A stretch of DNA of 64,000 nucleotides from Gammaproteobacteria bacterium (GTDB taxonomy: Bacteria > Pseudomonadota > Gammaproteobacteria > S012-40). Within the stretch, counting starts at the first letter, position 1; the number at the start of each line of letters is the position of its first letter. The translations under genes were made by a program, and so were the position numbers. Of this stretch, positions 1,584-63,764 are shown one piece after another. The notes under the pieces were generated by a model, which was not told the DNA's origin, made no database searches, and saw only the letters and a program-made list of their open reading frames with translations. The stretch lies in the NCBI GenBank assembly GCA_919902765.1, contig CAKKRP010000023.1:1-64000 (forward strand), in the 5' to 3' direction.

Positions 1584-2456
1584 ATGCAAGCGAAATGGTT
1601 GGGAATTGCCCTTGCGGCCGGTTCCGTGATCGGTATGGTGGTGGGCGCGCTCGCTGTCCGTCCCGCCTTGGCCGGCATCGCGCAATCGGTGCATAATTTG
1701 GGTACGACAGGGGTAGGGTCCAACCCGAATGGCGGTGCCCGCAATCAGTTTTCCGGCACGGCGGAAATCTGTGTGTTTTGTCATACGCCGCACGGTGGCG
1801 ATGCGAACGCCGCAGTACCGTTGTGGAATCGGCGTTTGAGCAATCCCGCGATTTACCAAACTTACGATCAGCTCGGCACCAGCACCCTAGATGCCAAGGT
1901 CGCGGCAGTGGGGTCGGTGTCCTTAGGTTGTCTGTCGTGCCACGATGGCACTCAGGCGATAGACGCCGTGATTAACGAACCGGGGTCAGGTGCGGATAAC
2001 CCTGGTTTTAGAGCGGGGACATGGACAGGCACCGACAATAATTTGGGTAAACTCGCCCCAAGCGTCGTGCAAATGTTGGGTATAGATCTCACCAATGACC
2101 ATCCGATAGGCATGCAGTACGCTGGCGGCGGGCTTTCAGCCGCGCGACCCATACTCCCCCAAGGCGAAACCACCGATCCGGATTTCGCTCCTGTGCGCTA
2201 TAAAGTCGAAAACGGTCGTTACTTTTGGTGGGTGGACAAAGATTGGCGTATCGGCGGCGATGGCGAGCGCACCAAGAACGATGCCGTGTTATATACACGA
2301 GACGCCAACAATGGCTATGCCGGTCAATCGGGGCCAGAGCCGTTTGTCGAATGCGCCAGTTGCCATGACCCGCATACGACCGATAATCCCACGTTTTTGC
2401 GTGTTAGCAACACCGAAACGCCGAGCGGTTTGTGTCTGACGTGTCACGTCAAATAA
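1584..2456 (+). CDS. Tetraheme c-type cytochrome (OmcE/ECN-like candidate)
   Basis: Signal peptide; four CXXCH (CVFCH, CLSCH, CASCH, CLTCH); exactly four other His. Confidence 0.85.
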   Translation: MQAKWLGIALAAGSVIGMVVGALAVRPALAGIAQSVHNLGTTGVGSNPNGGARNQFSGTAEICVFCHTPHGGDANAAVPLWNRRLSNPAIYQTYDQLGTSTLDAKVAAVGSVSLGCLSCHDGTQAIDAVINEPGSGADNPGFRAGTWTGTDNNLGKLAPSVVQMLGIDLTNDHPIGMQYAGGGLSAARPILPQGETTDPDFAPVRYKVENGRYFWWVDKDWRIGGDGERTKNDAVLYTRDANNGYAGQSGPEPFVECASCHDPHTTDNPTFLRVSNTETPSGLCLTCHVK

Positions 2457-3403
2457 ATTGGCGGCGTAGCGTTTACGTCATCGTCATGTGTGCGCTGGCG
2501 GGGCACGCCTGGGCCGCGAACGATGAATTTGCGACCGTTGACGGTGAGCGCATCACCGCGCAAGAATATCGTTTAGCGGTGCAATCGGGGATCAAAAAGC
2601 GGTTTTATCACGGCACGATTCCCGAGGATAAATTGCGTCAGTTTCGTGAGGAAGTCGGGCAGCAATTGGTCGATCGCGTGTTGTTAGTAAAAGAGGCCGC
2701 GCGGCGTAATGTGCGTGCCGATGCGCGTGTAGTCGAAGCACAACTACACGAATATCAATCGCGTCTTAAAAAAAACGATAAACATATAGTCACAACCGAA
2801 ATGCAAGCGGGGTTGCGCCATTTCCTGGAAGAAGAAAATCAGATGCAGCAACTCGAACGCATAATCAAAACCGTGACCGCACCGGAAGAACCGGTCGTGA
2901 TGGCCTATTACCGCCAACACCCGGAATTGTTCACCACGCCGGAACGTATCCATGCCTCGATAATTTTATTAAAAGTAGATCCGGCGGCAGGCGCGGCGGC
3001 GTGGAATGCCGCACAACAAGAGGCGCAACAAATTGTCACGCGATTGCGCAAAGGCGCCGGTTTCGCGGAATTAGCCCGTATCCATTCGGGGGATGAATCG
3101 GCGTCTAAAGGCGGTGATTTAGGCTTTATCCATGCCGGGATGTTGGCCGAACCGGCGCAGCAAGCCTTATCCAAATTGCAGTCGGCACAAATAAGCGAAC
3201 CGGTGATGTTGTTGCAAGGGGTGGCGGTGTTGCGATTAGAAGAGCGTGAAGCGCCTAAGCTTAATGAATTTAAAACCGTTGCGGCGCGCGCCCGAGAGTT
3301 ATGGCAACGCAATCGCGCGCAGACGGCGTGGCGTGAGTTTATCGAAGGCTTGCGTAAACGCGCGGACATACACATCAATACGACGCTCTATCGGGAGACG
3401 TGA
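2432..3403 (+). CDS. Periplasmic parvulin-type peptidyl-prolyl cis-trans isomerase (PpiC/SurA-like)
   Basis: Signal peptide; parvulin signature 'ERIHASIILLKV...FAELARIHSGDESASKGGDLGFIHAGML'; GTG start overlaps upstream cytochrome. Confidence 0.85.
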   Translation: MSDVSRQINWRRSVYVIVMCALAGHAWAANDEFATVDGERITAQEYRLAVQSGIKKRFYHGTIPEDKLRQFREEVGQQLVDRVLLVKEAARRNVRADARVVEAQLHEYQSRLKKNDKHIVTTEMQAGLRHFLEEENQMQQLERIIKTVTAPEEPVVMAYYRQHPELFTTPERIHASIILLKVDPAAGAAAWNAAQQEAQQIVTRLRKGAGFAELARIHSGDESASKGGDLGFIHAGMLAEPAQQALSKLQSAQISEPVMLLQGVAVLRLEEREAPKLNEFKTVAARARELWQRNRAQTAWREFIEGLRKRADIHINTTLYRET

Positions 3404-3526
3404 GGGCGGTTTACAGGGCATTGTACGATGACGTACACTGCGGGGCTCGCGGTGCGGGGAAGGCGCTAAGCGAGAGGGGTAAATGGGTGGTAACACCCTT
3501 GTTGAACGTGGATAGTAAGGCATTCC

Positions 3527-5452
3527 GTGAAGATGCGTGGGGGGGGTAGACCAGTCGCGTGGGCCGTGTTGTGGCTGTTGCCGTTATTGATAACGGTAAA
3601 CGCCTATGCGGGTGTTAGCCCGTGGCGTATGGGCGGTAATCTCGAATACAACTACCGCCAAACCGATACCCAGCCTGGCAACACGTCATCCTATGACCAC
3701 CGTTTTTTGGGTGCATTGGATATCAACGGCTATTTAGGTCAGCCGTGGGTGGCAACCACCGATGCGGGTGGGACGGTCAGTGTGGGCCAAATACGCTCTA
3801 GCAGTGGGCAGCGTAGCGATGCCGATCTATTGACCGGGCGTTTCAATTTTAATTTATTCCCCAGCAGCCATTTTCCAGCGTCGTTTACCTATCAGGCGAG
3901 TAACAATGTCATCGATTGGGTCAATACTCAACAATCTTCCGCACTGACGCTGAACGATCGTTATCGTTCCAGTTATATGAGTTTGCGCCAAGGATTGATT
4001 GCGCCCCAAGGGGATCGTGCGGATGTATTTTACCAAGTGAATGATCGCAGCACCGATAAGAAGGATTTCGGGCGCTACACAGATAAAACCCTAGGATTGA
4101 AGACCCAGTTGCGTGGCGAAGGCGTTAATTTTTATGCCACCGGGACCCAATTGATGGGCTCGCAGTCGGCGACCGGCGATACCCAAACCAGCACCAACGG
4201 GGTGGCCAACCTCGGCATTTTCCCGGGCAGCGATTTCTACTTAAACACCTTGGGTACGTTGGTGAGCACGTCACGCAAAGATGGCGCGGCGCGGCCCAGC
4301 GGCACAGTTGCGCCTAGTAATGGTAGTTTTGCCTCTAACGCCGACACGTCGATACAGCAAGTGGCCAGTTATTTTTATTGGCGACCGGAATACAAGGCCT
4401 ACGCTATGACCGGCGGGGCGCGTTTGCATAGACGCAATGCCGTGTTCGCCGAACAATTAACGGAGTTGACCCAGCTCAATTCAACTGCGTCTGTAGAGCA
4501 ACAATTAATTAAGGCGGATATTGTTAACGAACAATATGATGTCGCCGCCAATCTCGCTGCGGATTATCAATTTACGATGCGTACACGCATGTATGTTGCC
4601 GCCGATTTTTCCAGCGCCAATACCTTGACGACGTGCAATTATCAGCCTTCGCCCTATCAAATTTCAGTGTTAGGGTGTACAGACTCCGCCAATAACAGTT
4701 GGGGCGGCACCGGGTCTGGCGCGGTGATACATCAATCCGATAAATATGTTTACAACGGCATAGGGTGGTATTGGTACGCCGACGGCAACACCTCCGCGAA
4801 ATTGCTGACTCAATATGAGGCGCGCGATTGGTCAGGCGCCACGAGTGGCGGTATAACGCACACCGGATACTATAATTGGGTGACCGGTAATCGCGGCACA
4901 TTGCGCGTCACCGCGACGCAAGGCGCACGCCAATTTCTCACCTACTCCAGTGCCGATTCCAACCGGATGAATGTGGCGCATACGCTATCGATGACTTGGA
5001 ATAATAATGACGAGGGGGTCAATTCCTTCTTGCAGGCCTTGGTGACGGACAATCACGAGCTCGGCTTAGATCGAAATTCCCAATTGATAAACTTGCAGTA
5101 TTCAAGTACCTACGCCATTTCCCGGGTCAGCAATTTTGGCGGCCATGTCTCGGCGCAGAGCGCGCGACGTTATGACACCTTGGGCAGCACCGGGTTTTTG
5201 ACCACCGCGAGCGGACGATTGAGCTACCAACATGCGCGGGTTTTTGGTATATATCGGTTGCGATTCAATGCGCGCGGGGACTTGTCTTTAGTCGAAGTTC
5301 AATATGGCGGGGCACGCCGTCAATTTGACTGGCAGAACGATTTGGATTACAACATCGGAAGGCTGAGTACGGCGCTTATGTATCGAATGTTGTACAATGA
5401 AGGGGCTCAGAATACGCAAATGCTGTTACTGAAGGTGAGCCGGAATTTTTGA
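3527..5452 (+). CDS. Outer-membrane beta-barrel protein, putative porin-like conduit/secretion component
   Basis: Signal peptide ending AYA; repeating amphipathic beta-strand pattern; C-terminal Phe (VSRNF). Confidence 0.75.
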   Translation: MKMRGGGRPVAWAVLWLLPLLITVNAYAGVSPWRMGGNLEYNYRQTDTQPGNTSSYDHRFLGALDINGYLGQPWVATTDAGGTVSVGQIRSSSGQRSDADLLTGRFNFNLFPSSHFPASFTYQASNNVIDWVNTQQSSALTLNDRYRSSYMSLRQGLIAPQGDRADVFYQVNDRSTDKKDFGRYTDKTLGLKTQLRGEGVNFYATGTQLMGSQSATGDTQTSTNGVANLGIFPGSDFYLNTLGTLVSTSRKDGAARPSGTVAPSNGSFASNADTSIQQVASYFYWRPEYKAYAMTGGARLHRRNAVFAEQLTELTQLNSTASVEQQLIKADIVNEQYDVAANLAADYQFTMRTRMYVAADFSSANTLTTCNYQPSPYQISVLGCTDSANNSWGGTGSGAVIHQSDKYVYNGIGWYWYADGNTSAKLLTQYEARDWSGATSGGITHTGYYNWVTGNRGTLRVTATQGARQFLTYSSADSNRMNVAHTLSMTWNNNDEGVNSFLQALVTDNHELGLDRNSQLINLQYSSTYAISRVSNFGGHVSAQSARRYDTLGSTGFLTTASGRLSYQHARVFGIYRLRFNARGDLSLVEVQYGGARRQFDWQNDLDYNIGRLSTALMYRMLYNEGAQNTQMLLLKVSRNF

Positions 5453-5609
5453 TCTGCCCGTAGCCTGACGATACCGGAGTTACCGTATAGGTAGATTCGG
5501 GGGGGTAGGGCTGTTGCAGGCAGAGAGAGTTGCGGCCAGGTAAAGTCAGCATAGTATAATAAACTGGGGAGATTTTTTTATTAACACCATCATATGGGAG
5601 CGACTAGCA

Positions 5610-6023
5610 ATGTGGAGATATGCCATATTTGGATTGGTGGGATGGGTTTCGGCGTTGCTGATATCCATTCCGGCGCAGGCGGAATATGCCGACGTGGTCA
5701 TTAACAATTATGCCGATGCGGCAGGTATGCGTCCGGTGGTATTTCCGCACTGGTACCACCGTGTGCGCTTCCGTTGTAAGGTGTGCCACGCCGATCTTGG
5801 ATTCCAGTTCAAGGCCGGTGGTAACAAGATCACCATGGCCAAAATCGTAGACGGTCAGTTCTGTGGCGCTTGCCACAACGGTGAAATTTCGTGGTCGGTA
5901 GAAAATTGCGGCATGTGTCACTCGGGCGTGCCCGGCACGGCGACGCAAATCCACGGCAGCACCGTACAACGTCTCGTCGCGCCTACTTATGAGGCGCTAT
6001 CTGACAAAAAGAAAGCGCAGTAA
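5610..6023 (+). CDS. Triheme c7-type cytochrome
   Basis: Signal peptide; CKVCH, CGACH, CGMCH; 'VVFPHWYHRVRFRCKVCH'. Confidence 0.85.
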   Translation: MWRYAIFGLVGWVSALLISIPAQAEYADVVINNYADAAGMRPVVFPHWYHRVRFRCKVCHADLGFQFKAGGNKITMAKIVDGQFCGACHNGEISWSVENCGMCHSGVPGTATQIHGSTVQRLVAPTYEALSDKKKAQ

Positions 6024-6035
6024 GGAGGCATAGCT

Positions 6036-6722
6036 ATGAGAATGATCGCGACGATAGCAACACTCGCATTGTCCCTAGGGACGGCCGCAGCGACGTGGGC
6101 GGCGGATAAGGCGGACAATAACAGCAAGCCTGTTACCTCCGCTGAAATCACCGGCTCGGTACCTGCGCAAATTAACGTTTCTAATGCCAATGTCTTCAAC
6201 CGTTTGTTGAAGAAAGACAAAGAACGCAACTCTGCGCCGCCGACTGACGGTATACACGATGCCGATAACGAGGGCACCCACCAGTTACAACCGCCTAAGG
6301 TCGCCTACGAAGGTTTCCCGACGACGGAGTTCGGCAACTACATCGATTGGGTAAAGTCCTTGAATGGCGGTAATATTAATCCGCGTTATGATCGTGAAGA
6401 TCCTAGTGTCGAGCCCATCGTGATGGACTTAGACATACTGCGTGAGGTCAAGGCCTCCATGCCGGACGTGATCTTCCCGCACAAACCGCATACACAGTGG
6501 CTGCATTGCTCCAACTGCCATCCCAAAATCTTTAAGCCGCAACGTGGCTCTAACCAGATCAATATGTCGCAGATTTTGCTCGGCCAGAAGTGCGGCGTAT
6601 GCCACGGCAAGGTGTCTTTCCCGATCACCACCAAGTCTTGCACAAAGTGCCATTCCAAGCCCAAACCGGCGGAATGGAAGCCACCATTGAGCGACGCGAG
6701 TGTGAAAAATCCGTGGCGCTAA
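6036..6722 (+). CDS. Triheme c7-type cytochrome with N-terminal extension
   Basis: CSNCH, CGVCH, CTKCH; 'IFPHKPHTQWLHCSNCHPKIFKPQRG'. Confidence 0.85.
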   Translation: MRMIATIATLALSLGTAAATWAADKADNNSKPVTSAEITGSVPAQINVSNANVFNRLLKKDKERNSAPPTDGIHDADNEGTHQLQPPKVAYEGFPTTEFGNYIDWVKSLNGGNINPRYDREDPSVEPIVMDLDILREVKASMPDVIFPHKPHTQWLHCSNCHPKIFKPQRGSNQINMSQILLGQKCGVCHGKVSFPITTKSCTKCHSKPKPAEWKPPLSDASVKNPWR

Positions 6723-6836
6723 GCTGCGGTTTTTAAAGGAATAATTACACGGCGGGGTGTGGTGTGGCCGCACCCCAAACGGTTGGCTGGTGGGCGCGGG
6801 TGGCTCACTCGCCAACGCTTATGTGCGCGGGCGAAT

Positions 6837-8396
6837 ATGAAAGACGGGGGCGGATCATCTTGGTGGTATAGGCTAGCGGCCATAGGCCTGCTAGCGGTCT
6901 TCGTCTGCGGGTGTAGTTGGGGCCGTGGTAAGGGCGTTAAAACGCCTTCCGTCCCCAGCCCTAAGGCGATACCAGCCGATAACACTGTACGGCCGGAATT
7001 GGCTCCACCCGTGGAAGATGTTGCCGTTGAAGTGATTGCCTTACCCGCAGACGCCGTGCCCGGCAAGGCGCAGCCTATGCCCGAAACGCCTACGGCGATA
7101 CCGATAGCGCCAGCGACGTTGTCAGCCCCGGTAAGCGCGCCCGCGCCGCCATTGCCAGCGGTAAATCCTGCGGGGGCCACGCCACAGAGCGCGTTACCGC
7201 CTAACACTTATCGCGTGACGGTGGGCATAAAAGACACCTCGCATCCAAACTACGGCGTGGGCAACACCATGGGTTTTGTTGTGAATGGCGAACCCGGTAA
7301 AACATTGGTGGTTAAACGCGGTACCGAATCCACGTTTGAAGTGGTAACCGATATTAAACACGATTTTTATTTGTCTACGAGCCCGATCGGTTGGGGCAGC
7401 GGGGCCTTTGGCACGGGCGTACGTGGCAACTTTACCTACCGGGGGGAAGTCACGCTGACCCCGACGGCGGATACGCCGGATACGCTGTATTATCAATGCC
7501 GTAATCATAAAGCGATGGGCGGTAAGATCTTGGTGGTGAATCCCAACGCCGACCTCGCCGCAGTGCAAAAACAAATCGCCGCCGAGCGTACCCAAAATGG
7601 CGGGGCGATAGTTGCTGAAGCCGCCACAACGGCCGCTCAGGGCAGCGCCACCAAACAAAAAATGGACTATGCGAATATGCTGTTTAAGGCTAAGAGCGCC
7701 AAACTCACGCCGGAGCTCGCCAAGCAATTTGAAAAAGAATTGGCGCAAGGCAACACCTTGGTGCATGGCAAAGACGAAGCGCGCACGCTTGCGTATGCCG
7801 ATGATTACATCAAACGATTAAACGCCGCGACGGCAGGTAAACGTAGCGATGAGGCGATGGCGGAAGCGCGCAAGTCTTATCATGAATTGTTAGAGGCCGT
7901 ACACAGTTTTGAAAAATCTCACGCCGATAACAGCAAACGCGCGCGGGCGGCGGGCGGCAAACGGGTCGATTATGATAAAAAACAAGTTGATCAATTGATT
8001 GCCGAGGCCGCGCAATTGGCGGCTAAAAATCAATACGATACTGCGAATGCCAAATTGCAACAGGCGCAGCGCCTCGTTACGTTGGCGATTAATGAAATGT
8101 TGCATCAACAGACCTTGGTCTACGATAAAAATTTTGCGACGCCCAGAGACGAATATGAATTTGAATTGGGGCGTCTAGACAGTTATGTCGAATTGATCCC
8201 AGTGGCAAAAGAACAGCGTGTACCTACGCCGGCGATGGAAAAGTTGATGGAACCGTTCAACGCCAAGGCCGAAAATTTACGCGCCATGGCGGTCAAGTCG
8301 GCAAGCGAAGGCGATCATAAAAATGCGATCTTAATGCTGCAAGCAGGCACCGAAAACGTGCAACGTGTGTTGCGGCTATTAGGCGTGAGCATGTAA
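6837..8396 (+). CDS. Cupredoxin-domain putative lipoprotein with C-terminal helical region
   Basis: Start chosen at 6837 (provided ORF begins 6759); hydrophobic segment then CGC; 'KHDFYLSTSPIGWG...TLYYQCRNHKAMGGKILVVN' resembles a type-1 Cu site. Confidence 0.7.
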   Translation: MKDGGGSSWWYRLAAIGLLAVFVCGCSWGRGKGVKTPSVPSPKAIPADNTVRPELAPPVEDVAVEVIALPADAVPGKAQPMPETPTAIPIAPATLSAPVSAPAPPLPAVNPAGATPQSALPPNTYRVTVGIKDTSHPNYGVGNTMGFVVNGEPGKTLVVKRGTESTFEVVTDIKHDFYLSTSPIGWGSGAFGTGVRGNFTYRGEVTLTPTADTPDTLYYQCRNHKAMGGKILVVNPNADLAAVQKQIAAERTQNGGAIVAEAATTAAQGSATKQKMDYANMLFKAKSAKLTPELAKQFEKELAQGNTLVHGKDEARTLAYADDYIKRLNAATAGKRSDEAMAEARKSYHELLEAVHSFEKSHADNSKRARAAGGKRVDYDKKQVDQLIAEAAQLAAKNQYDTANAKLQQAQRLVTLAINEMLHQQTLVYDKNFATPRDEYEFELGRLDSYVELIPVAKEQRVPTPAMEKLMEPFNAKAENLRAMAVKSASEGDHKNAILMLQAGTENVQRVLRLLGVSM

Positions 8397-8422
8397 GTAT
8401 ACAACATGGCTAAACAGGCACG

Positions 8423-8980
8423 GTGAAGATAATGGGCAAGTTACACATAGTCTTGGTGGCGATGGCGGCGTTGGCGGCGGGGCCGCTATTTGCCGAGGAT
8501 AATTCCGGACATTTTCAATTAAACGGCGACGTGGTGCCCCTGGCGCATGATGGCATCCATGATCCTGAAAATGAGGCCGTGCGCATTTTACAGCCGCCCG
8601 CCGAGGCGATGTTGAATTTTCCGCGCGATGAACGCGGCATCATCAACTGGGTGGAGACGCTCAACAAGGGGTTAGTCAATCCGCGCGCAGGCGTCACCGG
8701 TGACGAAAAAATGCATTCGGTGGATTTCGATGTCATTTTTCGTAACACCGCATCCATGCCCTATGTGCGATTCCCGCACCTGCCGCATACCCAGTGGTTG
8801 ACTTGTAAAAACTGTCATCCAGGGATTTTCATTCCGCAGCGCGGCGCCAATCCTGTCACCATGGCCGCCATCATCTCCGGCGAATATTGCGGTGTATGTC
8901 ACGGCAAGGTCGCGTTTCCGCCTTATGAGTGTAATCGATGCCACAAAGTGCCCAAAGAAAGCGTAGGTTTGCGTTACTAA
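8423..8980 (+). CDS. Triheme c7-type cytochrome, paralogue of 6036..6722
   Basis: CKNCH, CGVCH, CNRCH; shared 'DGIHD..NE...LQPP' and 'FPH.PHTQWL.C.NCHP.IF.PQRG.N'. Confidence 0.85.
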   Translation: MKIMGKLHIVLVAMAALAAGPLFAEDNSGHFQLNGDVVPLAHDGIHDPENEAVRILQPPAEAMLNFPRDERGIINWVETLNKGLVNPRAGVTGDEKMHSVDFDVIFRNTASMPYVRFPHLPHTQWLTCKNCHPGIFIPQRGANPVTMAAIISGEYCGVCHGKVAFPPYECNRCHKVPKESVGLRY

Positions 8981-9954
8981 TCACGGTTGCGCTGGCGCAT
9001 ACGGCATGCGCGCTCAAACCGGTGGCGCAAGCGCCCGATGCGCCAGTCGCGCCGTTTGCGGCCAAGAGCCTGACCTATGTGGCGACGCTGGATAATGTAC
9101 GCCTCGGTTACGCGGATAAATTTTTGCGCGTATTGTTCGGGCGCAATGAATATCGGTTGGAACGTCCGGTCGCCATAGCCGCGCGCGATAAAAATCTATA
9201 TATCGCGGACGCAGGCGCGCATATCATTTTTCGTTATGACATAGCCAGGAAAATATTAACCAAAATCGGTAGTGCCGGTGACAAATTGGCGGGCGAGGCG
9301 GGCGGAATTTACGTCGCCGCCAACGGCGATTTTTATGTCGCCGATCCAGTAGGTCAACAAGTTCTCAAATTCTCTCGCAATGGCGATTTATTACAGACAT
9401 TTCGCGACGCGCCCAATATTTCGCGACCCATTGCCGTGGCCGTCGATGAAAACAGCGGGCGTCTATTTGTGGCCGATGAGGTCTATAGTCATGTCGTGGT
9501 ATTTAACGCCGAGGGTGAGGCCATACAAGGCATAGGCGCGCGCGGTTTAAATGCCGGACCGGGAAATTTTCGCGTCATCACCGATATGGCCATGGCCCCC
9601 GCAGGGCTGTACGTGACGGATCGCGTTGAATTGCGTGTGCAATTGCTCGATTTGCAGGGCAAATTCGTGCGCAGCTTTGGACAACAAGAGTTGATTTTCC
9701 CCTTGGCGATTGCCCGCGACGCGCATGGGCGTGTCTACGTCACCGATCGTAGTGACAACCGTTTACGCATTTTCGATGCGCAAGGGCAGTTGATCGAGGC
9801 TGTAGGTCACAATGGCAGCGGCCCCGGCGAATTTCGTTTGGCCAATGACATGGCTATCGCCGACGATAGTTTATATATCGCGGATAGCTTGAATGGGCGT
9901 ATACAAGTGTTCAAAATAGAGCCGCCCAAAACAGAGATGTCTGCGATCAAATAG
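8938..9954 (+). CDS. NHL-repeat six-bladed beta-propeller protein, exported
   Basis: Repeated 'LYIADAGAHIIFRYD', 'FYVADPVGQQVLKFS', 'LYIADSLNGRIQVF' NHL blades; N-terminal hydrophobic segment. Confidence 0.85.
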   Translation: MPQSAQRKRRFALLITVALAHTACALKPVAQAPDAPVAPFAAKSLTYVATLDNVRLGYADKFLRVLFGRNEYRLERPVAIAARDKNLYIADAGAHIIFRYDIARKILTKIGSAGDKLAGEAGGIYVAANGDFYVADPVGQQVLKFSRNGDLLQTFRDAPNISRPIAVAVDENSGRLFVADEVYSHVVVFNAEGEAIQGIGARGLNAGPGNFRVITDMAMAPAGLYVTDRVELRVQLLDLQGKFVRSFGQQELIFPLAIARDAHGRVYVTDRSDNRLRIFDAQGQLIEAVGHNGSGPGEFRLANDMAIADDSLYIADSLNGRIQVFKIEPPKTEMSAIK

Positions 9955-9976
9955 TGCCGTGTGATAAGCGACGAAA

Positions 9977-11110
9977 GTGGCCCAGCGCAACAATGACAAC
10001 GCGAAACTTTTTATGAATGTAGCGCGTATTTGCTGTGCTTCGTTTGCCTTATCGCTTAGCGCCTGCGCTACGACGCCAGGAATATATCGCCTTACACCCC
10101 CTGCAGAAGTCGTTGTTTTTCCCAAACCGCCTGACATTGCGCGTTATCAATATCTAGGCGCGCTCGTCGGCGAGTCGAATTTTGTGCGCCCGGACAATGC
10201 GCAACAACAACGCGGCCTGCGTTTGTGGTATTGGTTGGTGGGTTTGGTATTTGGCGAGGAAGGCCCTTACACCTTGGCGCGACCGCAAACCGGTATCGTA
10301 GATGATCACAGTGGGCGCATCTATGTGTGCGATTCGGCGCGCGGCGCGGTAGTCGTGTTTGATCGCGCCGCAGGCGCCTTATATCACTGGGACGATGCCA
10401 CACCGCGTCAACGTTTCAAAACCCCGGTCGGCATTGCGCTGGGGCCGCGCAATGAAATCTGGGTTGCCGATGCTGAACTTGGCTACGTCGTACGTCTGAA
10501 CATACAGGGCGAGCCGCAAGGCGAACTCGGTAAAGGCGTGTTGCAACGTCCGGTCGGTATAGTCTGGGACGCGCAAGGTCAACGTCTCTACGTCGCCGAT
10601 GCGGCGGTACACGCAATTTTCGTTTTCGACGCGCAAGGTCGTGAGGTATCGCGCGTTGGCAAACGCGGAGAGCAAGCGGGTGAATTCAATGCGCCTACGC
10701 ATTTGGCCTTTGCGCGCGGCGAATTATATGTCAGTGACAGCCTGAATTCGCGTATCCAACGCTTTAACACTCAGGGTGTATGGTTGTCTACCTTGGGGCG
10801 GCGCGGGCTTAACATCGGCGATTTGCCGCGTCCCAAAGGTGTGGCCGTTGACGCGGCGGGCCGGGTCTATGTGGTGGAATCCTATTATGACTATCTGTTA
10901 GTATACGATCACGAAAATCGCTTGCTGCTCGCCATAGGTGGCAGCGGTACGGGGGGCGGCCAGTTCAACTTACCGGCAGGCGTGTGGTTAGACGCCACCG
11001 GCAAGGTCTACGTGGCCGATATGTACAACGGGCGGGTCGAGGTTTTTCAATTTTTGGATGATGCCCCAGTGGCACCCCAGTCACCGCCCACACCCAGCAA
11101 GGTCCCATGA
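9977..11110 (+). CDS. NHL-repeat six-bladed beta-propeller lipoprotein
   Basis: Lipobox LSAC; 'FPKPPDIARYQYLGALVGESNF' then NHL repeats. Confidence 0.87.
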   Translation: MAQRNNDNAKLFMNVARICCASFALSLSACATTPGIYRLTPPAEVVVFPKPPDIARYQYLGALVGESNFVRPDNAQQQRGLRLWYWLVGLVFGEEGPYTLARPQTGIVDDHSGRIYVCDSARGAVVVFDRAAGALYHWDDATPRQRFKTPVGIALGPRNEIWVADAELGYVVRLNIQGEPQGELGKGVLQRPVGIVWDAQGQRLYVADAAVHAIFVFDAQGREVSRVGKRGEQAGEFNAPTHLAFARGELYVSDSLNSRIQRFNTQGVWLSTLGRRGLNIGDLPRPKGVAVDAAGRVYVVESYYDYLLVYDHENRLLLAIGGSGTGGGQFNLPAGVWLDATGKVYVADMYNGRVEVFQFLDDAPVAPQSPPTPSKVP

Positions 11111-13338
11111 TAGCGAAACGCATCTTATCTACGATTTTGGTAGTCGCGGCCCTGGGCGGCGGCGCGCACTTGGTGTTGGCTGCGCAACAAACCTTAGCGC
11201 CGGATCGCATCGCCGATGTGTTGAATACCAAACACAATTTTGCGGCGTTTTTTACGCCCAAATTGCCTACCGGCGCGATACGCGCAGTGGAAGCAAGCAC
11301 GCAAAACGAGACCTGCGTGTTTTGTCATACCCCGCACGCGGCGACCATTTCCGCGCCAGCGCAACTGTGGAATCGCGGTTTTAGCGCCGCAACTTACACG
11401 CTATATTCTTCCGGGACTATGGAAGCCGTGCTCAGCGCGACCGACCTCGGTGTAGGTTCTAAGATGTGTTTGTCTTGTCACGACGGCACGATCGCGCTCG
11501 GCAAGGTGAATGCGGTTAATGGCGTCGCCGCGACGAGTGATATCACCTTTAAAAGCGGGGTGACGACCATGCCTGATGGCAGTGGAGCTAATAGCGGCGA
11601 TACACGGAATATCGGTAGTGATCTGCGCAATGATCATCCGATAGCGGTGGAATACAGCGCCACGGTAGCGGGCAATGACGGGGAATTGCATGCGCCTGGC
11701 GCCATGTTTTATCAAGCCTTGGGCACACCTGTCGTCGGCGCGCGCAATAAGACCGTGCATACCTATCCCGCAGCGCCGTTGGAAACGGTCAATGCTAAAG
11801 ATACCCTGCAATGTACCACCTGCCACGACCCGCATATACGCGGCACAGGTGCCGACGAAAATGTAAATATCAAATTTCTGCGTTTGAATCGGTTTCAAAA
11901 AGCCGACCCTGTCGATGGCATTTTTTCCGTCTCCAGCGACCAACAATGTTTGGCCTGTCATAATAAAACAGGGTGGGCGAATTCCGCGCATGCCAAGTCA
12001 ACCGCTACGCCATACACTTATATCGATAGCGCGGCAGATAAGCGCGAATTTCCGCATAATACGAACATGTGGGAAGCGGGTTGTTTAAATTGCCACGATA
12101 CGCATACTGTCGCAGGTGCGCCCTATTTATTGCGTGAAGGGGCAAGTGGCGGAAATAGCGCGACGGAGAATACTTGCTACCAATGTCATGGAGCGCAAGG
12201 GGCGAGCGCGTTGAATGTCGCATCGTTGACGAATATAGAATCCGCATTTTTGGCCGGTACTGCGACCAGCATCAGCTTGAGTACGCATGGAGATAAAATT
12301 ATAGCGACAAGCAGCGCGTATGGAGATGGCCACGCGCCCGCCAAGAAAAATGTAGACCTCGGCAACGGAACCACTGTCGCAACGGGCGGAAACCTCGCAG
12401 AGACACAGAGCAACCTTAAAACTAACCGCCATGTCGAATGTGCAGATTGCCACCATCCACATCGCGTGCAGGCGGGCACCCACAGCCACGTCGCGGGTAC
12501 CGCACACACCAACGCAGTGGCAGGCGTGTTGATCGGGAACTACGGCGTCGAACCGCTGGCGAATTATGCCGGTACGTTCACGCCCTATGACACCACAGTA
12601 CCGATGACGTATACAGTGAAGCAAGGCAACACGGGTTCCGGTACCGAGATCACCAAAGAATACCAGGTTTGCGTAAAGTGTCATTCGAGTTATAGTTTGG
12701 ACAATACCCAAATCGGTGCGACCAATAAAGTGACCAATGTTGCCGCAGAATTCCTCAGCGGCACAAGCAAACACCCCGTCATGGCGGGGACTGGCGGCAG
12801 CGGCGCGGCGGCCGGGGCGTTTGTTGCGCCATTTAATCAAGCGCTGGGCACGCAGACCATGTATTGTTCCGATTGCCACGAACCGCACAGCGGCAAAATG
12901 AAAATGGCGGGAGATGCCCTTTGTTATGATTGTCACTCAGTCAATAGCTATGGCAATACGGGTGCCTCGGTTAGCAGCAGTGGTTTTAGTTGTAGCGTAG
13001 CCCCCTGTGTATCGAATGCCGGGGCTACCGCACCCTCCAACAACGCAACGACATTTTCAAACCTGCATGTGCGCCATGCGCAACTCGTGACCGGGTATCG
13101 CTGCAACGATTGCCACACCAAGCAGATGCATGGTTGGAAATTAAAGGCCTTCCTTGTCGATATAAATGCGGTGAGTAGTGAAGTTGCAGATGTGCCGGGT
13201 GCTAAAGCCCCTGGTTATACTTACTTACCCTATTATGATGCGGCCCGTTTACAAATTTCGGGGGGGGTGGCGGCGAACGCAGGTAGCTGGACTAAAGCCA
13301 GTTGTGGCGCAAGTGGATGCCATGTACTTCCGAATTGA
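11107..13338 (+). CDS. Multiheme c-type cytochrome (11 CXXCH + one CX4CH)
   Basis: CVFCH, CLSCH, CTTCH, CLACH, CLNCH, CYQCH, CADCH, CVKCH, CSDCH, CYDCH, CNDCH, plus C-terminal CGASGCH; ATGA overlap with upstream gene. Confidence 0.87.
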   Translation: MIAKRILSTILVVAALGGGAHLVLAAQQTLAPDRIADVLNTKHNFAAFFTPKLPTGAIRAVEASTQNETCVFCHTPHAATISAPAQLWNRGFSAATYTLYSSGTMEAVLSATDLGVGSKMCLSCHDGTIALGKVNAVNGVAATSDITFKSGVTTMPDGSGANSGDTRNIGSDLRNDHPIAVEYSATVAGNDGELHAPGAMFYQALGTPVVGARNKTVHTYPAAPLETVNAKDTLQCTTCHDPHIRGTGADENVNIKFLRLNRFQKADPVDGIFSVSSDQQCLACHNKTGWANSAHAKSTATPYTYIDSAADKREFPHNTNMWEAGCLNCHDTHTVAGAPYLLREGASGGNSATENTCYQCHGAQGASALNVASLTNIESAFLAGTATSISLSTHGDKIIATSSAYGDGHAPAKKNVDLGNGTTVATGGNLAETQSNLKTNRHVECADCHHPHRVQAGTHSHVAGTAHTNAVAGVLIGNYGVEPLANYAGTFTPYDTTVPMTYTVKQGNTGSGTEITKEYQVCVKCHSSYSLDNTQIGATNKVTNVAAEFLSGTSKHPVMAGTGGSGAAAGAFVAPFNQALGTQTMYCSDCHEPHSGKMKMAGDALCYDCHSVNSYGNTGASVSSSGFSCSVAPCVSNAGATAPSNNATTFSNLHVRHAQLVTGYRCNDCHTKQMHGWKLKAFLVDINAVSSEVADVPGAKAPGYTYLPYYDAARLQISGGVAANAGSWTKASCGASGCHVLPN

Positions 13339-13779: not shown

Positions 13780-15510
13780 ATGAGTACCATATTGGGTGGC
13801 GGACCTAGCGTTCCGCGCAATATTTTCGGCGCACTGCTAGTCGTTGCGTTGATCGGCATATTTACCGCCCATGAGGCCTTGGCGGATGCCGCCGGGCGCT
13901 CTGGGCGTTCAGGCGCAACTGCAAGCCGGTGTACTAGCTGCCATACCGCAGGCGCCGTAGTGCCTACGGTCGCCTTTGGCGGTAGCGCCTCCCTAGCCGC
14001 AGGGACGACCGGCACCTACACCTTTACTATCACCGGTGGACCCGCAGTGAACGCGGGTTTTGACGTGGCTGCGTCGGGTGGCGTGTTAGCGGTACCGACC
14101 GGTGTAACGGGGATCAAAATTTTAACGCGTGAAGTGGTGCAAAGCTCCGCCACTGCATTTACCGCAAGCGGCGTGACCTATACCTTTGATTGGACCGCCC
14201 CAGCGATAGCCGGGACGTACACCTTGTACGGCGCAGGGCTTTCCGGAAATGGCGATGGAAAAGACGGTGCAGGCGATGGCACCGCTATGACCACTTTTTC
14301 AGTCACCGTTACTGCTGGCGGTGTGACTCCAGTGACAAATCCGGTGGCACGTATCACTGCGCCGACGGCCGGTGTTGCCGGGACGGCCGTGACCTTCAGT
14401 GCGATGAGTTCTACCGCGCCCGCTGGACGTACGCTCAGCTCTTATGCGTGGAATTTCGGTGACAATAGTTTTGGCGCGGGCGTTTCAACGACGCATAGTT
14501 TTTTGGCGGGTTCCTATACGGTGACGCTGACTGTCACTGACAGCTCTGGCGCGACAGGTTCCGCGACCGCACCGCTAGTCGTTGCGCCGACAGGCACCAG
14601 TGTATTGACCGCCAACGCGGGTGGCCCCTATGCCGGTGCGCTCAATGTCCCCGTGCAGTTTGATGGCTCGGGTTCGAGTGCGCCAGGCGGCTCCATTGCG
14701 ACGTACGCGTGGGATTTTGGCGATAGTTCCACGGCCGGAACGGGGGTGAATCCCACACATACCTATACCACCGTGGGGCGCTACACCGTCACCGTGACCG
14801 TAACGGACAATACCAACACCACGGCCACCGCAACCACGATGGCGAATATCGCGCCAACGACGCGGCCACCTGGCAGCGGAGGCATCTCTGCGGCGACGGG
14901 TTTGCCACGCATCGGTGAGCGTCGCTACGACAGATATTGCGCGGATTGTCATGGCGTTGGTGGCTTGGGTGTTGCTATAGACGGAACAGCCACAAGCGGA
15001 CCTGCGATCACTGGTGTCACTGCCGATACGATTGCATTCGAAATCACCGAGGTGCCGGAAATGAACACGCCAGAGCTTAATGCCCTCAGTAGCGATGACA
15101 TTCGCCTGATCTCAGCCTTTTTACAAGGCGCGCAGTTATATATCGATAATTGCGAGTCCTGTCACGGCGTAGGAGGCGTGGGCATCGCTGGTACCGGGTC
15201 GAACATCCTCGGTGCCTCGGCGCGCGAGATCGCCTCTGCCATTGAAGACATTACCGAAATGCAAACCCCCGAGTTGCAGGCCTTGACGAGGAGGGAGCGT
15301 TCATTAATTGCCTTCTTCTTACCGCGCAAGTCGCGTACAGACTCATTATCGGCGGATAGTTTGGCGGACTCCGGGGCAGATTATCCGGATATCCTAGCGA
15401 ACGATGGCGGTACATCGACCTTACCCAAAGCGACGCAAAGCGGTGCTTTTGATGGCCTAGCATTGAGTGCGCTTGGGATTTGGGCCTTGAGACGCCGCCG
15501 CAAGCAGTAA
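13780..15510 (+). CDS. Choice-of-anchor-V/reelin-like + 2 PKD domains + monoheme cytochrome domains, C-terminal sorting-like tail
   Basis: CTSCH, CADCH, CESCH; two 'YAWNFGD/YAWDFGD' PKD domains; C-terminal 'GLALSALGIWALRRRRKQ'. Confidence 0.78.
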   Translation: MSTILGGGPSVPRNIFGALLVVALIGIFTAHEALADAAGRSGRSGATASRCTSCHTAGAVVPTVAFGGSASLAAGTTGTYTFTITGGPAVNAGFDVAASGGVLAVPTGVTGIKILTREVVQSSATAFTASGVTYTFDWTAPAIAGTYTLYGAGLSGNGDGKDGAGDGTAMTTFSVTVTAGGVTPVTNPVARITAPTAGVAGTAVTFSAMSSTAPAGRTLSSYAWNFGDNSFGAGVSTTHSFLAGSYTVTLTVTDSSGATGSATAPLVVAPTGTSVLTANAGGPYAGALNVPVQFDGSGSSAPGGSIATYAWDFGDSSTAGTGVNPTHTYTTVGRYTVTVTVTDNTNTTATATTMANIAPTTRPPGSGGISAATGLPRIGERRYDRYCADCHGVGGLGVAIDGTATSGPAITGVTADTIAFEITEVPEMNTPELNALSSDDIRLISAFLQGAQLYIDNCESCHGVGGVGIAGTGSNILGASAREIASAIEDITEMQTPELQALTRRERSLIAFFLPRKSRTDSLSADSLADSGADYPDILANDGGTSTLPKATQSGAFDGLALSALGIWALRRRRKQ

Positions 15511-59699: not shown

Positions 59700-60368
59700 A
59701 TGTGGGCAGCGGCGCGCATCGTCTTGTGGCGGGATGTCTTGTTGGCGGTGCGACGGCAGTCCGAGGTGGTGACCAGCCTGTTTTTCTTTATCTTGGTGGT
59801 CACGCTGTTTCCATTGGGCGTGGGGCCGGATATCGAGATGTTGCGCATCATTGCCCCCGGCGTGGTGTGGGTGGCGGCGTTGCTGGCGTCGATGTTGGCG
59901 CTCAATCGCATGTTTTCCGGCGATTATGTCGATGGCAGCCTGGAGCAAATGGTGCTGGCCGCGCAACCCTTGCCGGTGTTGGTGTTCAGCAAAATCTTGG
60001 CCCATTGGCTGGTGTCGGGCCTGCCCTTGGTGGTGATGGCACCGGTGCTGGGCCTGCAATTGGGTATGGATAGCGACAGTTTGCGTGTGCTCGTGATATC
60101 GTTATTGATCGGCACGCCGGTGTTGAGTTTGATCGGCGCGGTGGGCGCGGCGCTGACCTTGGGTCTGCGCGGGGGCGGGGTGTTGATTTCATTATTAGTG
60201 TTGCCTTTATATATCCCAGTGCTGATCTTTGGCGCGGGGGCGGTGGAGGCCACACAGGCGGGGTTGGGGGGCGACTCCCATTTGTATCTTTTGGGGGCGA
60301 TTTGCGTGTTTTCGCTGTTATTGGGCCCGTGGGCCAGTAGCGCCGCCTTACGCATAGCGATGGAATAG
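59700..60368 (+). CDS. ccmB: Heme exporter CcmB
   Basis: Polytopic; position in ccm operon. Confidence 0.95.
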   Translation: MWAAARIVLWRDVLLAVRRQSEVVTSLFFFILVVTLFPLGVGPDIEMLRIIAPGVVWVAALLASMLALNRMFSGDYVDGSLEQMVLAAQPLPVLVFSKILAHWLVSGLPLVVMAPVLGLQLGMDSDSLRVLVISLLIGTPVLSLIGAVGAALTLGLRGGGVLISLLVLPLYIPVLIFGAGAVEATQAGLGGDSHLYLLGAICVFSLLLGPWASSAALRIAME

Positions 60369-60374
60369 GCGGCG

Positions 60375-61127
60375 ATGTCGATATTGAGTAAAGAATTTTG
60401 GTTGCAATTCTCGTCACCCAAGACATTTTATCCGGTGGCGGGCAGGATGATCCCGTGGTTTGCCGGTGGGGCGATCCTACTAACGTTAGTCGGCCTGTAT
60501 ATCGGCCTCTTAGCCGCGCCGACCGATTTTCAGCAAGGCGACGCCTATCGCATCATCTATATTCATGTCCCGGCGGCGTGGATGTCGATGTTTATCTATA
60601 TCGTGATGAGCGTTTATGCCGGCATGGGCCTGGTATTAAACGCGCGCTTGTCGAATATGATGGCCACGGCATTGGCGCCTACCGGTGCGATGTTCGCGTT
60701 TTTGGCCTTGTGGACGGGGGCCTTGTGGGGGCGCCCGACCTGGGGGGCTTACTGGGTGTGGGATGCGCGCCTGACCTCGCAATTGATTTTATTGTTTTTG
60801 TATCTTGGTTATATCGCCTTGCAGGCCGCGATTGACGATCCGCGTCGCGCCTATCGCGCCAGCGCGGTGTTGGCCTTGGTCGGGGTCATCAACGTGCCCA
60901 TCATTTATTTTTCGGTGCAGTGGTGGAATACCTTGCACCAGGGTTCATCCATTAATATCAGCCAAGCGCCTAAAATGGCCAGCATCATGTTGACCACGAT
61001 GTTGATCATGTCGTTGGCGGCGTGGTTATATGCGATTGCGATTGCGCTGTTCCGCGTGCGCGTGATTATCTTGGAGCGCGAACGCCACAGCGATTGGGTG
61101 CGCGATCTCGTAGGGGCGCGGCCATGA
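60375..61127 (+). CDS. ccmC: Heme exporter CcmC
   Basis: WWD-type 'LWTGALWGRPTWGAYWVWDARLTS'. Confidence 0.96.
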   Translation: MSILSKEFWLQFSSPKTFYPVAGRMIPWFAGGAILLTLVGLYIGLLAAPTDFQQGDAYRIIYIHVPAAWMSMFIYIVMSVYAGMGLVLNARLSNMMATALAPTGAMFAFLALWTGALWGRPTWGAYWVWDARLTSQLILLFLYLGYIALQAAIDDPRRAYRASAVLALVGVINVPIIYFSVQWWNTLHQGSSINISQAPKMASIMLTTMLIMSLAAWLYAIAIALFRVRVIILERERHSDWVRDLVGARP

Positions 61128-61300
61128 ATTGGAATAGTTTCGGCGAGTTCCTGCACATGAGCGGGTACGGCCCCTATGTGTGGGGGTCTTATGGGGTGTT
61201 TGCGTTGTTTATCGTTGTCGAGTGGGTGCAGTTGTCGCGACGACGCAAAGACATAATCGCGCGTATCAAACGTATGGCGCGCATGGAAAGGGGTGATTAA
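61124..61300 (+). CDS. ccmD: Heme exporter protein CcmD
   Basis: 58 aa 'MSGYGPYVWGSYGVFALFIVVEW'; ATGA overlap with ccmC. Confidence 0.93.
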   Translation: MNWNSFGEFLHMSGYGPYVWGSYGVFALFIVVEWVQLSRRRKDIIARIKRMARMERGD

Positions 61301-61302
61301 AC

Positions 61303-61788
61303 ATGAAAACTCGGCATAAACGTTTGGCGTTTGTCGTAGCGGGTCTTGGGGCGTTGAGTTTGATCGCCTACCTCATCTTCAACGCATTTCAGGGCAATTT
61401 ACTGTATTTTTTCAGCCCCAGTGACGTGGTAGCCAAAAAAGCCCCGATTGAAAAGAGTTTTCGTTTAGGTGGCTTGGTCGAGGTGGGGTCATTAAAGCGT
61501 GAAGATGACGGATTGACCGCGCATTTTACGGTGACGGATAATGTGCAGCGTATAAACGTGACCTATAAAGGCATCCTGCCGGATTTATTTAAAGAAGGTA
61601 AAGGAGTGGTCGCGCAAGGTAAATTGGAGCATGACGGCATGTTCCGCGCGAGTGAAGTCTTAGCCAAACACGACGAGAATTACATGCCGCCCGAAGTGGC
61701 TGCGTCTTTGAAGTCCGCGCAAAACGGCGCTAAATCTCCGGCCCCTGCGGCCAACACCGTTAATACCGAAGGGGGACGTAAACTGTGA
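61303..61788 (+). CDS. ccmE: Heme chaperone CcmE
   Basis: Heme-binding 'VLAKHDENYMPPEV'. Confidence 0.96.
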   Translation: MKTRHKRLAFVVAGLGALSLIAYLIFNAFQGNLLYFFSPSDVVAKKAPIEKSFRLGGLVEVGSLKREDDGLTAHFTVTDNVQRINVTYKGILPDLFKEGKGVVAQGKLEHDGMFRASEVLAKHDENYMPPEVAASLKSAQNGAKSPAPAANTVNTEGGRKL

Positions 61789-63764
61789 TACCTGAACTTG
61801 GACATTTTGCCCTAATCATCGCGCTGTTGCTGGCGCTGACGCAATGCGTATTGCCGTTAGTCGGCGCGCAGCGCGGCATTACCTCTTGGATGGCGGTCGC
61901 GCGACCGGCGGCGGTGGGACAATTCGGATTTATTCTGATTGCGTTTAGCTGTTTGGTCTACACCTTTGTCACCAATGACTTCACCGTCGCGTATGCCGCG
62001 CAACAGTCCAATTCAAAATTGCCCGTCATGTATCGCGTCGCCGGGGTGTGGGGCGGTCACGAAGGGTCGATGTTATTGTGGGTGTTTATGCTGAGTGCCT
62101 GGACGCTGGCCGTCACCGCCTTTAGCCGCCATTTACCGAACGATATGGTGTCGCGCGTGATCGGCGTGTTGGGTTTTATCTCGTTTGGTTTTATATTATT
62201 TGTCTTGTTGACCTCCAATCCGTTTGAACGCTTGTTGCCCGGCGCCGAAGACGGGCGCGATTTGAATCCCTTGTTGCAAGACCCGGGTTTGATTATTCAT
62301 CCGCCGATGTTGTACATGGGTTATGTCGGATTCTCTGTTGCGTTCGCGTTCGCGATCGCGGCCTTGATCGGTGGAAAACTCGATGCCACGTGGGCGCGTT
62401 GGTCGCGCCCGTGGACGACCGTGGCGTGGGTATTTTTGACTGGCGGTGTTGCGCTGGGTAGCTGGTGGGCGTATTACGAACTCGGGTGGGGCGGATGGTG
62501 GTTCTGGGACCCGGTGGAAAACGCGTCTTTCATGCCTTGGTTGGTCGGCACCGCACTCATACATTCATTGGCGGTGACCGAAAAACGCGGCACGTTTAAA
62601 AATTGGACCGTGTTATTGGCCTTGTGTACATTTTCCTTGAGTTTGCTTGGTACATTCTTAGTACGCTCCGGTGTATTAACCTCGGTGCATGCCTTCGCAA
62701 CCGATCCTGAGCGTGGCGGATTTATCCTGATGTTCCTCGCCATCGTGGTTGGCAGTTCCTTGCTGTTATACGCCTGGCGCGCGCCCACAGTGGGCTTGGG
62801 CGGTCGTTTCGGTATGATCTCGCGCGAATCGTTATTGCTGACCAATAATGTGTTGTTATTAGTGGCCGCAGGCGCGGTGTTGTTGGGCACACTATATCCT
62901 TTATTGATGGATGCGCTGGGTCAAGGCAAGATATCTGTCGGACCACCGTATTTTAACGCGATATTCGTGCCCTTGATGACCCCCTTGGTATTCCTGATGG
63001 CAATAGGCCCCATCGCGCGTTGGAAAAATGCCGATGTGCCGGAAATCATCGACCGCTTGAAATGGGCCTTTGGCGTCAGTGTGGTCACGGCGCTGGTGCT
63101 GCCGTTTGTGATGGGGCATTGGTCTTGGTTGGTAAGCCTCGGGCTGTTTATGGCGACCTGGATATTTTCCAGTATCATCGCTAGCATTTGGCGTCGCGCT
63201 AAAACACGCGCAGTGGCCGGCGTGGAGAGTGGCTCTGCGTCATTGAGTTATTACGGCATGCAATTGGCGCATACCGGTGTTGCCGTGTTCATCGTCGGTG
63301 TGACCTTGGTTCTAGGTTACGAAGAACAAAAAGACGTGCGCATGGACATCGGCGATACCGTACAGTTAGGTGAATATTCCTTCCGTTTCGATGGCGTGCA
63401 AACGGTGCCGGGTCCCAATTACGAGGCCACGCGTGGCCGTTTGACGGTGTTCAAAAATAATAAACCGTTTGCGCTGATGGAGCCGGAAAAACGCATTTAT
63501 ATCGTACAACAAATGCCGATGACCGAAGCCGCGATCAGGCCCAGTTTGTTCGGCGATTTATACGCATCCCTGGGTGAGCCCGTGAGCGGCGGCGCGTGGA
63601 GCGTGCGCGTGTATCATAAACCCTTTGTCGATTGGATATGGGGCGGCTGTTTTATCATGCTGATGGGCGGTGTGTTGGCGATTTCAGATAGACGTTATCG
63701 TTTATCCAAGGTGCGGGCTGCGGCGCGTGTAGACATTCAAATGCCGGCGGGGGTAAAAGGCTAA
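61785..63764 (+). CDS. ccmF: Heme lyase CcmF
   Basis: WWD 'GWGGWWFWDPVENASFMPWLVGTALIHSL'. Confidence 0.97.
   Translation: MIPELGHFALIIALLLALTQCVLPLVGAQRGITSWMAVARPAAVGQFGFILIAFSCLVYTFVTNDFTVAYAAQQSNSKLPVMYRVAGVWGGHEGSMLLWVFMLSAWTLAVTAFSRHLPNDMVSRVIGVLGFISFGFILFVLLTSNPFERLLPGAEDGRDLNPLLQDPGLIIHPPMLYMGYVGFSVAFAFAIAALIGGKLDATWARWSRPWTTVAWVFLTGGVALGSWWAYYELGWGGWWFWDPVENASFMPWLVGTALIHSLAVTEKRGTFKNWTVLLALCTFSLSLLGTFLVRSGVLTSVHAFATDPERGGFILMFLAIVVGSSLLLYAWRAPTVGLGGRFGMISRESLLLTNNVLLLVAAGAVLLGTLYPLLMDALGQGKISVGPPYFNAIFVPLMTPLVFLMAIGPIARWKNADVPEIIDRLKWAFGVSVVTALVLPFVMGHWSWLVSLGLFMATWIFSSIIASIWRRAKTRAVAGVESGSASLSYYGMQLAHTGVAVFIVGVTLVLGYEEQKDVRMDIGDTVQLGEYSFRFDGVQTVPGPNYEATRGRLTVFKNNKPFALMEPEKRIYIVQQMPMTEAAIRPSLFGDLYASLGEPVSGGAWSVRVYHKPFVDWIWGGCFIMLMGGVLAISDRRYRLSKVRAAARVDIQMPAGVKG

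Follow-up and report, generated by a model that had tools for sequence, protein, structure and literature searches.

The undecaheme cytochrome UetJ, encoded at the end of a uet-type operon, begins with a tetraheme module homologous to the small cytochrome UetA of the same operon and to the nanowire subunit OmcE. The boundary of this module can be placed near residue 288; its hemes and distal-type histidines are conserved, and a fifth distal-type histidine, H295, distinguishes it from free subunits, from which it is also separated in phylogenetic trees. In our tentative reading, UetJ may serve OmcE-type filaments as a dedicated end piece or adaptor, its module having been specialized long ago for the filament end.

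The Uet-type operon

Ten closely set genes on the plus strand (1584-13338) of the window, that is, the whole 64-kb stretch of DNA analyzed here, encode cytochromes, a peptidylprolyl isomerase, a barrel-sized protein, and NHL propellers (Table 1). This is the gene content reported for the undecaheme electron transfer (Uet) pathway in a pangenome study of Gallionellaceae, which credits the pathway to work on Tenderiales (PMC10734462). The tetraheme UetA, isomerase UetB, trihemes UetDEG, NHL proteins UetHI, and undecaheme UetJ of the published set are all found in the window, and by this content we name the 743-aa protein UetJ and the small tetraheme protein UetA. The Uet system itself is already known, and in Tenderiales, as well as in Gallionella and Leptothrix relatives, the undecaheme cytochrome is likewise accompanied by UetA, UetB, UetC, UetDEG, and UetHI.

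The order of the operon is kept in relatives from the same family and from three other families of the class, where uetJ is again the last gene. NHL genes are present in 92 of 105 loci, a set that includes free-tetraheme loci, and the uetC-like and uetF-like genes are each conserved in 30 of them, the former at the same place. The 641-aa uetC-like reading frame has no Pfam or NCBIfam match and sits where the barrel porin UetC is expected; for the uetF-like protein no Pfam or NCBIfam family scored above cut-off.

Several neighboring genes deserve mention. The gene adjoining uetA on the minus strand (194-1018) encodes an AAA ATPase similar to transposition helpers (PHROG 296), and relatives such as L016 and L029 have an NHL-like or lipoprotein-like gene in its place. 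Next to the operon, at 13780-15510 on the plus strand, lies a gene for a protein that combines a PKD domain (PKD_4, 3e-36) with cytochrome-c domains (Cytochrome_CBB3, 1.6e-15) and has three CXXCH motifs. Genes for cytochrome c maturation (CcmB, CcmC, and CcmF, recognized by reading the sequence) lie at 59700-63764, about 46 kb downstream of uet, and CcmA/B-like genes directly follow uetJ in several relatives (e.g., L017 and L018).

Table 1. Genes of the uet-type operon and features of UetJ, with positions in the window
Feature	Position	Strand	Description
uetA-like	1584..2456	+	free tetraheme cytochrome of the OmcE-type nanowire subunit family; 4 CXXCH; ends 2 residues past heme 4
uetB-like	2432..3403	+	SurA/PpiC-type peptidylprolyl isomerase; PF00639 8.5e-17, SurA_N
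uetC-like	3527..5452	+	predicted outer-membrane beta-barrel, by position alone
uetD-like	5610..6023	+	c7-type triheme cytochrome; TIGR04257 nanowire_3heme 5e-18
uetE-like	6036..6722	+	c7-type triheme cytochrome; TIGR04257 1.3e-17
uetF-like	6759..8396	+	secreted lipoprotein-like protein; start codon uncertain
uetG-like	8423..8980	+	c7-type triheme cytochrome; TIGR04257 6.5e-18
uetH-like	8938..9954	+	NHL beta-propeller; PF01436 5.9e-20
uetI-like	9977..11110	+	NHL beta-propeller, lipoprotein-like signal; PF01436 9.9e-28
uetJ-like	11107..13338	+	743-aa undecaheme cytochrome; 11 CXXCH and a C-terminal CX4CH
N-terminal OmcE-type tetraheme module of UetJ	11194..11970	+	residues ~30-288
Seven-heme extension of UetJ	11971..13335	+	residues 289-743; homolog of the stand-alone 7-heme protein of Desulfuromonadales
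Fifth distal-type histidine H295 of UetJ	11989..11991	+	14 residues downstream of the first heme-4 Cys
C-terminal CX4CH of UetJ	13303..13323	+	Cys733, Cys738, His739

Homology of the UetJ module to UetA and OmcE

The uetA and uetJ reading frames are both intact (1584-2456 and 11107-13338). The CXXCH motifs start at residues 63, 116, 257, and 284 in UetA and at residues 70, 121, 236, 281, 326, 357, 445, 522, 587, 606, and 666 in UetJ, and the motif order common to the two proteins is exactly as the original prediction had described it. That prediction also expected UetA to align with roughly the first 290 residues of UetJ beyond the heme motifs themselves. Such an alignment was obtained by BLASTP (E = 1e-19, 29% identity over 289 columns), and it remains highly significant after all heme motifs are masked, with a local score of 125 against 39.7 +/- 5.6 for shuffles of UetJ in which the motifs were fixed in place (z = 15; maximum 68 of 500), so that the similarity reaches beyond CXXCH. 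The unmasked score was 214 against 67 +/- 10 (z = 14). Chance likeness through the heme motifs is thus ruled out by the masking and the motif-keeping shuffles. The similarity is confined to the first ~290 residues of UetJ: in the unmasked comparison, windows from residue 151 on score at the level of shuffles.

In the PDB, UetA (phmmer) has two relatives, the Geobacter sulfurreducens nanowire subunit OmcE (7TFS, 5e-20) and a "putative multiheme cytochrome c" of 16 chains (9YUQ, 2e-19), and a UetA profile matches OmcE with E = 7e-24. The same two structures are the only matches of the UetJ profile (E = 8e-28 and 8e-24, respectively), and both matches are limited to the module. This agrees with the proposal that UetJ is an ECN-like tetraheme module fused to an extension; the profile match ends after the module, leaving the seven-heme extension without a solved relative by sequence. 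AlphaFold2 models of UetA (12 sequences, pLDDT 34) and UetJ (11 sequences, pLDDT 31) were of too low confidence for a comparison of folds.

Both UetA and the UetJ module share with OmcE the four hemes, the motif order, and the four distal-type histidines. In UetJ these are H43, H77, H177, and H243, each of which is present in 100% of 80 UetJ modules; their UetA counterparts, H37, H70, H173, and H264, are found in 93-100% of UetA-type proteins and are kept in OmcE and 9YUQ. The difference lies in what follows heme 4. OmcE stops right there and polymerizes, 9YUQ is likewise a free tetraheme subunit of the same family without an extension, and UetA ends at the same point, whereas the UetJ polypeptide runs on for ~460 residues, adding seven hemes and a fifth histidine. 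Because of this continuation, we do not class UetJ as an OmcE-type nanowire subunit.

The fifth histidine, H295, is part of a W..S.H pattern and occurs in all 82 UetJ proteins compared; it is still present in L106, where the motifs of hemes 4 and 5 are only 12 residues apart. In free subunits the chain extends only two residues past heme 4 (four in two cases), and none of 59 has a histidine after this heme; eight further free subunits from Desulfuromonadales also have none.

The MtrC/OmcA decaheme family TIGR03507 is absent among the matches of UetJ, and UetA scores 23.5 bits against its cut-off of 209. UetJ does pass the cut-off of PF22113 (MtrC/MtrF domains II/IV; 47 versus 30 bits, best stretch 229-335), which is a local multiheme similarity. 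OmcQ of G. sulfurreducens (12 hemes) was considered as a UetJ ortholog and dropped, its neighbors GSU0593-0594 being described as the Cbc5 complex. In the open-access literature searched we found no mention of the OmcE-type module of UetJ, its fifth histidine, or the split form described below.

Distribution and phylogeny

The genome scan together with relatives yielded 94 UetJ-like reading frames, of which 82 encode exactly 11 CXXCH motifs, although the proteins range from ~560 to 1200 aa. Going by record titles, more than ten phyla are represented, mostly by metagenome bins, whose single assignments may be wrong; cultured or complete genomes with a UetJ-like protein include Aromatoleum, Motiliproteus, Desulforhopalus, and a planctomycete chromosome. 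One locus (L038, 9914-15070) has two tandem uetJ copies of 831 and 836 aa with 11 hemes each.

When module sequences are placed on a tree, the UetJ label changes twice and the free-subunit label once, against about 32-33 changes for shuffled labels, and a second tree gave a similar result. By these sequence trees, UetJ modules and free tetrahemes are separate groups across many phyla; the deep branches are weakly supported, and we therefore claim their separation and not a single origin. The suggestion that the N-terminal third of UetJ repeats the tetraheme module holds as a statement of homology, but not in the sense of a copy of the neighboring gene: UetJ modules from different phyla group together apart from the free subunits, which rules out a recent duplication of uetA within the operon and points to an old paralog.

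A reading frame for a 3-5-heme OmcE-type protein occurs in the same locus for 59 of the 94 UetJ proteins, ~9.5 kb upstream in most Proteobacteria, and many of the remaining loci, in which no tetraheme was seen, end at contig or flank limits. All 16 genomes checked among those without a flanking tetraheme gene have tetraheme-type matches, some of which are themselves UetJ-type modules. The genome under study encodes two further OmcE-type cytochromes (C126, L147 7884-8993; C151, L148 7557-8345), each with five hemes and an extra CXXCH between hemes 2 and 3, and an NHL gene lies beside the C151 copy.

The extension and its split form in Desulfuromonadales

The extension was predicted to carry 7-8 hemes. 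It has seven CXXCH motifs, and the eighth would correspond to C-x(3-5)-CH at the C-terminus, which differs from one relative to another. In the UetJ of the window this motif, CX4CH, possibly binds a 12th heme; as a fixed feature of the family a 12th heme was rejected, since the cysteine pair is kept (94-98%) and the histidine is lost in most Proteobacteria. Distant relatives have CX3CH at the C-terminus, and 11 or 12 heme motifs have been reported for UetJ of Gallionellaceae (PMC10734462). Outside the heme motifs, about ten histidines are conserved in the extension, more than its seven hemes. It does not consist of further copies of the module, as no whole-module match was found and the profile alignment covers ~48 columns only.

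The fusion of module and extension is borne out by genomes in which the two parts are separate adjacent genes. The UetJ profile matches adjacent pairs of reading frames in genomes from the order of L107 (Desulfuromonas), which we hence take as Desulfuromonadales. All nine loci examined (L131-L137, L144, and L145) have a 4-heme reading frame of ~250-290 aa followed by a 7-heme one of ~370-430 aa, which together account for the 11 hemes of UetJ. Each half is homologous to one part of UetJ, though they are made as two polypeptides: the profile of the 4-heme half is far closer to the UetJ module (E = 1.4e-52) than to UetA (9.6e-24), and the 7-heme half matches the extension with E = 5.9e-65 over 304 columns (hhalign). 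The pair is again linked to a PpiC gene (8 of 9 loci) and an NHL gene (9 of 9), the order being seen directly in L132. In the examined stretch of these loci we detected no UetA-like gene beside the pair, and no triheme or UetC-like gene either, although a diverged barrel could escape such detection.

Each of the nine 4-heme halves has a tail of 11-27 residues past heme 4 that contains a histidine, which is not alignable residue by residue with H295. At the background frequency of histidine, the probability of a tail histidine in all nine by chance is about 2e-4 if the halves are treated as independent; they are not fully so, and the argument therefore draws mostly on the agreement with the fused form.

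Two other Desulfuromonadales loci have giant reading frames with at least 46 (L142, 5604-12002) and at least 51 (L143, 5059-12003) CXXCH motifs, directly 3' of a free OmcE-type tetraheme gene and still open at the end of the stretch.

Discussion

Each OmcE subunit has one heme, identified in one review as heme 2, for which the neighboring subunit supplies a ligand histidine (PMC12203936), and thus a free subunit gives one ligand and takes one. The UetJ module has one candidate ligand more than a free subunit, and its chain continues where free subunits end. We suggest that H295 and the extension may fill the coordination or stacking site of the neighboring subunit on one face of the module, whereas the other face would stay compatible with a UetA subunit. 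UetJ could then start or cap a filament of polymerized UetA, with H295 as a putative heme ligand, and link the heme chain of the filament to other carriers. Its position would more likely be at the cell-proximal base, a preference that comes only from the barrel-like protein and the periplasmic-type trihemes encoded in the operon. A role as cap, base, or docking subunit, as raised in the original prediction, finds indirect support in the restriction of the fifth histidine to UetJ-type modules and in the tetraheme gene of 59 of 94 loci. The only precedents for filaments are OmcE and, possibly, 9YUQ. H295 might serve no more than the hemes of the extension, ligating heme 5 or another of them, since the conserved histidines there outnumber the hemes, and the partner of the conserved module could be a protein or structure different from UetA.

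An alternative, which we regard as unlikely, is that UetJ is a stand-alone undecaheme cytochrome of the outer surface, active in electron uptake or in delivery to minerals or electrodes, whose tetraheme domain is an ancient shared fold that does not dock to UetA. In the literature on iron oxidizers, Uet indeed figures as a porin-cytochrome complex, and UetJ is counted among its cytochromes (PMC10734462); moreover, the constant count of 11 hemes is what a self-contained wire would have. The split pair without a UetA gene beside it fits as well and implies that in Desulfuromonadales UetJ may act without a filament. Such a role leaves unexplained why the four histidines of nanowire subunits are invariant, why the fifth separates end-type from polymer-type modules so cleanly, and why a tetraheme gene is so frequent in the same locus.

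Still less probable is a conduit across the outer membrane, with UetJ threaded through the UetC barrel like MtrA in MtrB and its module facing outward or inward. Eleven hemes in a row would suffice to cross the membrane, and the operon combines a barrel-sized protein with three triheme cytochromes of periplasmic type. However, the split operons retain PpiC, NHL, and the 4+7 hemes with no UetC-like gene seen, and the range of UetJ lengths fits poorly with a barrel lumen of fixed size. Polymerization of UetJ itself through its OmcE-type module into a nanowire with an 11-heme repeat would be in line with its full set of distal ligands and its surplus of non-motif histidines, but it is very improbable for a protein whose chain, unlike that of every free subunit, does not end at heme 4 and whose operon encodes a dedicated free subunit.

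If UetJ is indeed an end piece, the scheme may be a more general one, though we put this forward with greater reserve: OmcE-type nanowires across many phyla would have a dedicated end piece in which a fifth histidine replaces the ligand of the neighboring subunit and a seven-heme adaptor, either fused or, in Desulfuromonadales, encoded next to it, connects the filament with the remaining electron transfer chain.

Papers on nanowire structure appear to have passed over the piece that begins or ends a wire; in describing the OmcZ filament, the authors say explicitly that they left potential tip proteins out of account (PMC9473688). UetJ is a concrete candidate for an end piece, being widespread and having kept all ligands of the polymer type, with an additional one at a site that the next subunit might occupy. 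Its relatives in cultured Aromatoleum tolulyticum, Aromatoleum evansii, Motiliproteus, and Desulforhopalus make experiments possible. Through this module, the Uet pathway, which belongs to cathode- and iron-oxidizing bacteria, is further linked to OmcE and its family in metal reducers.
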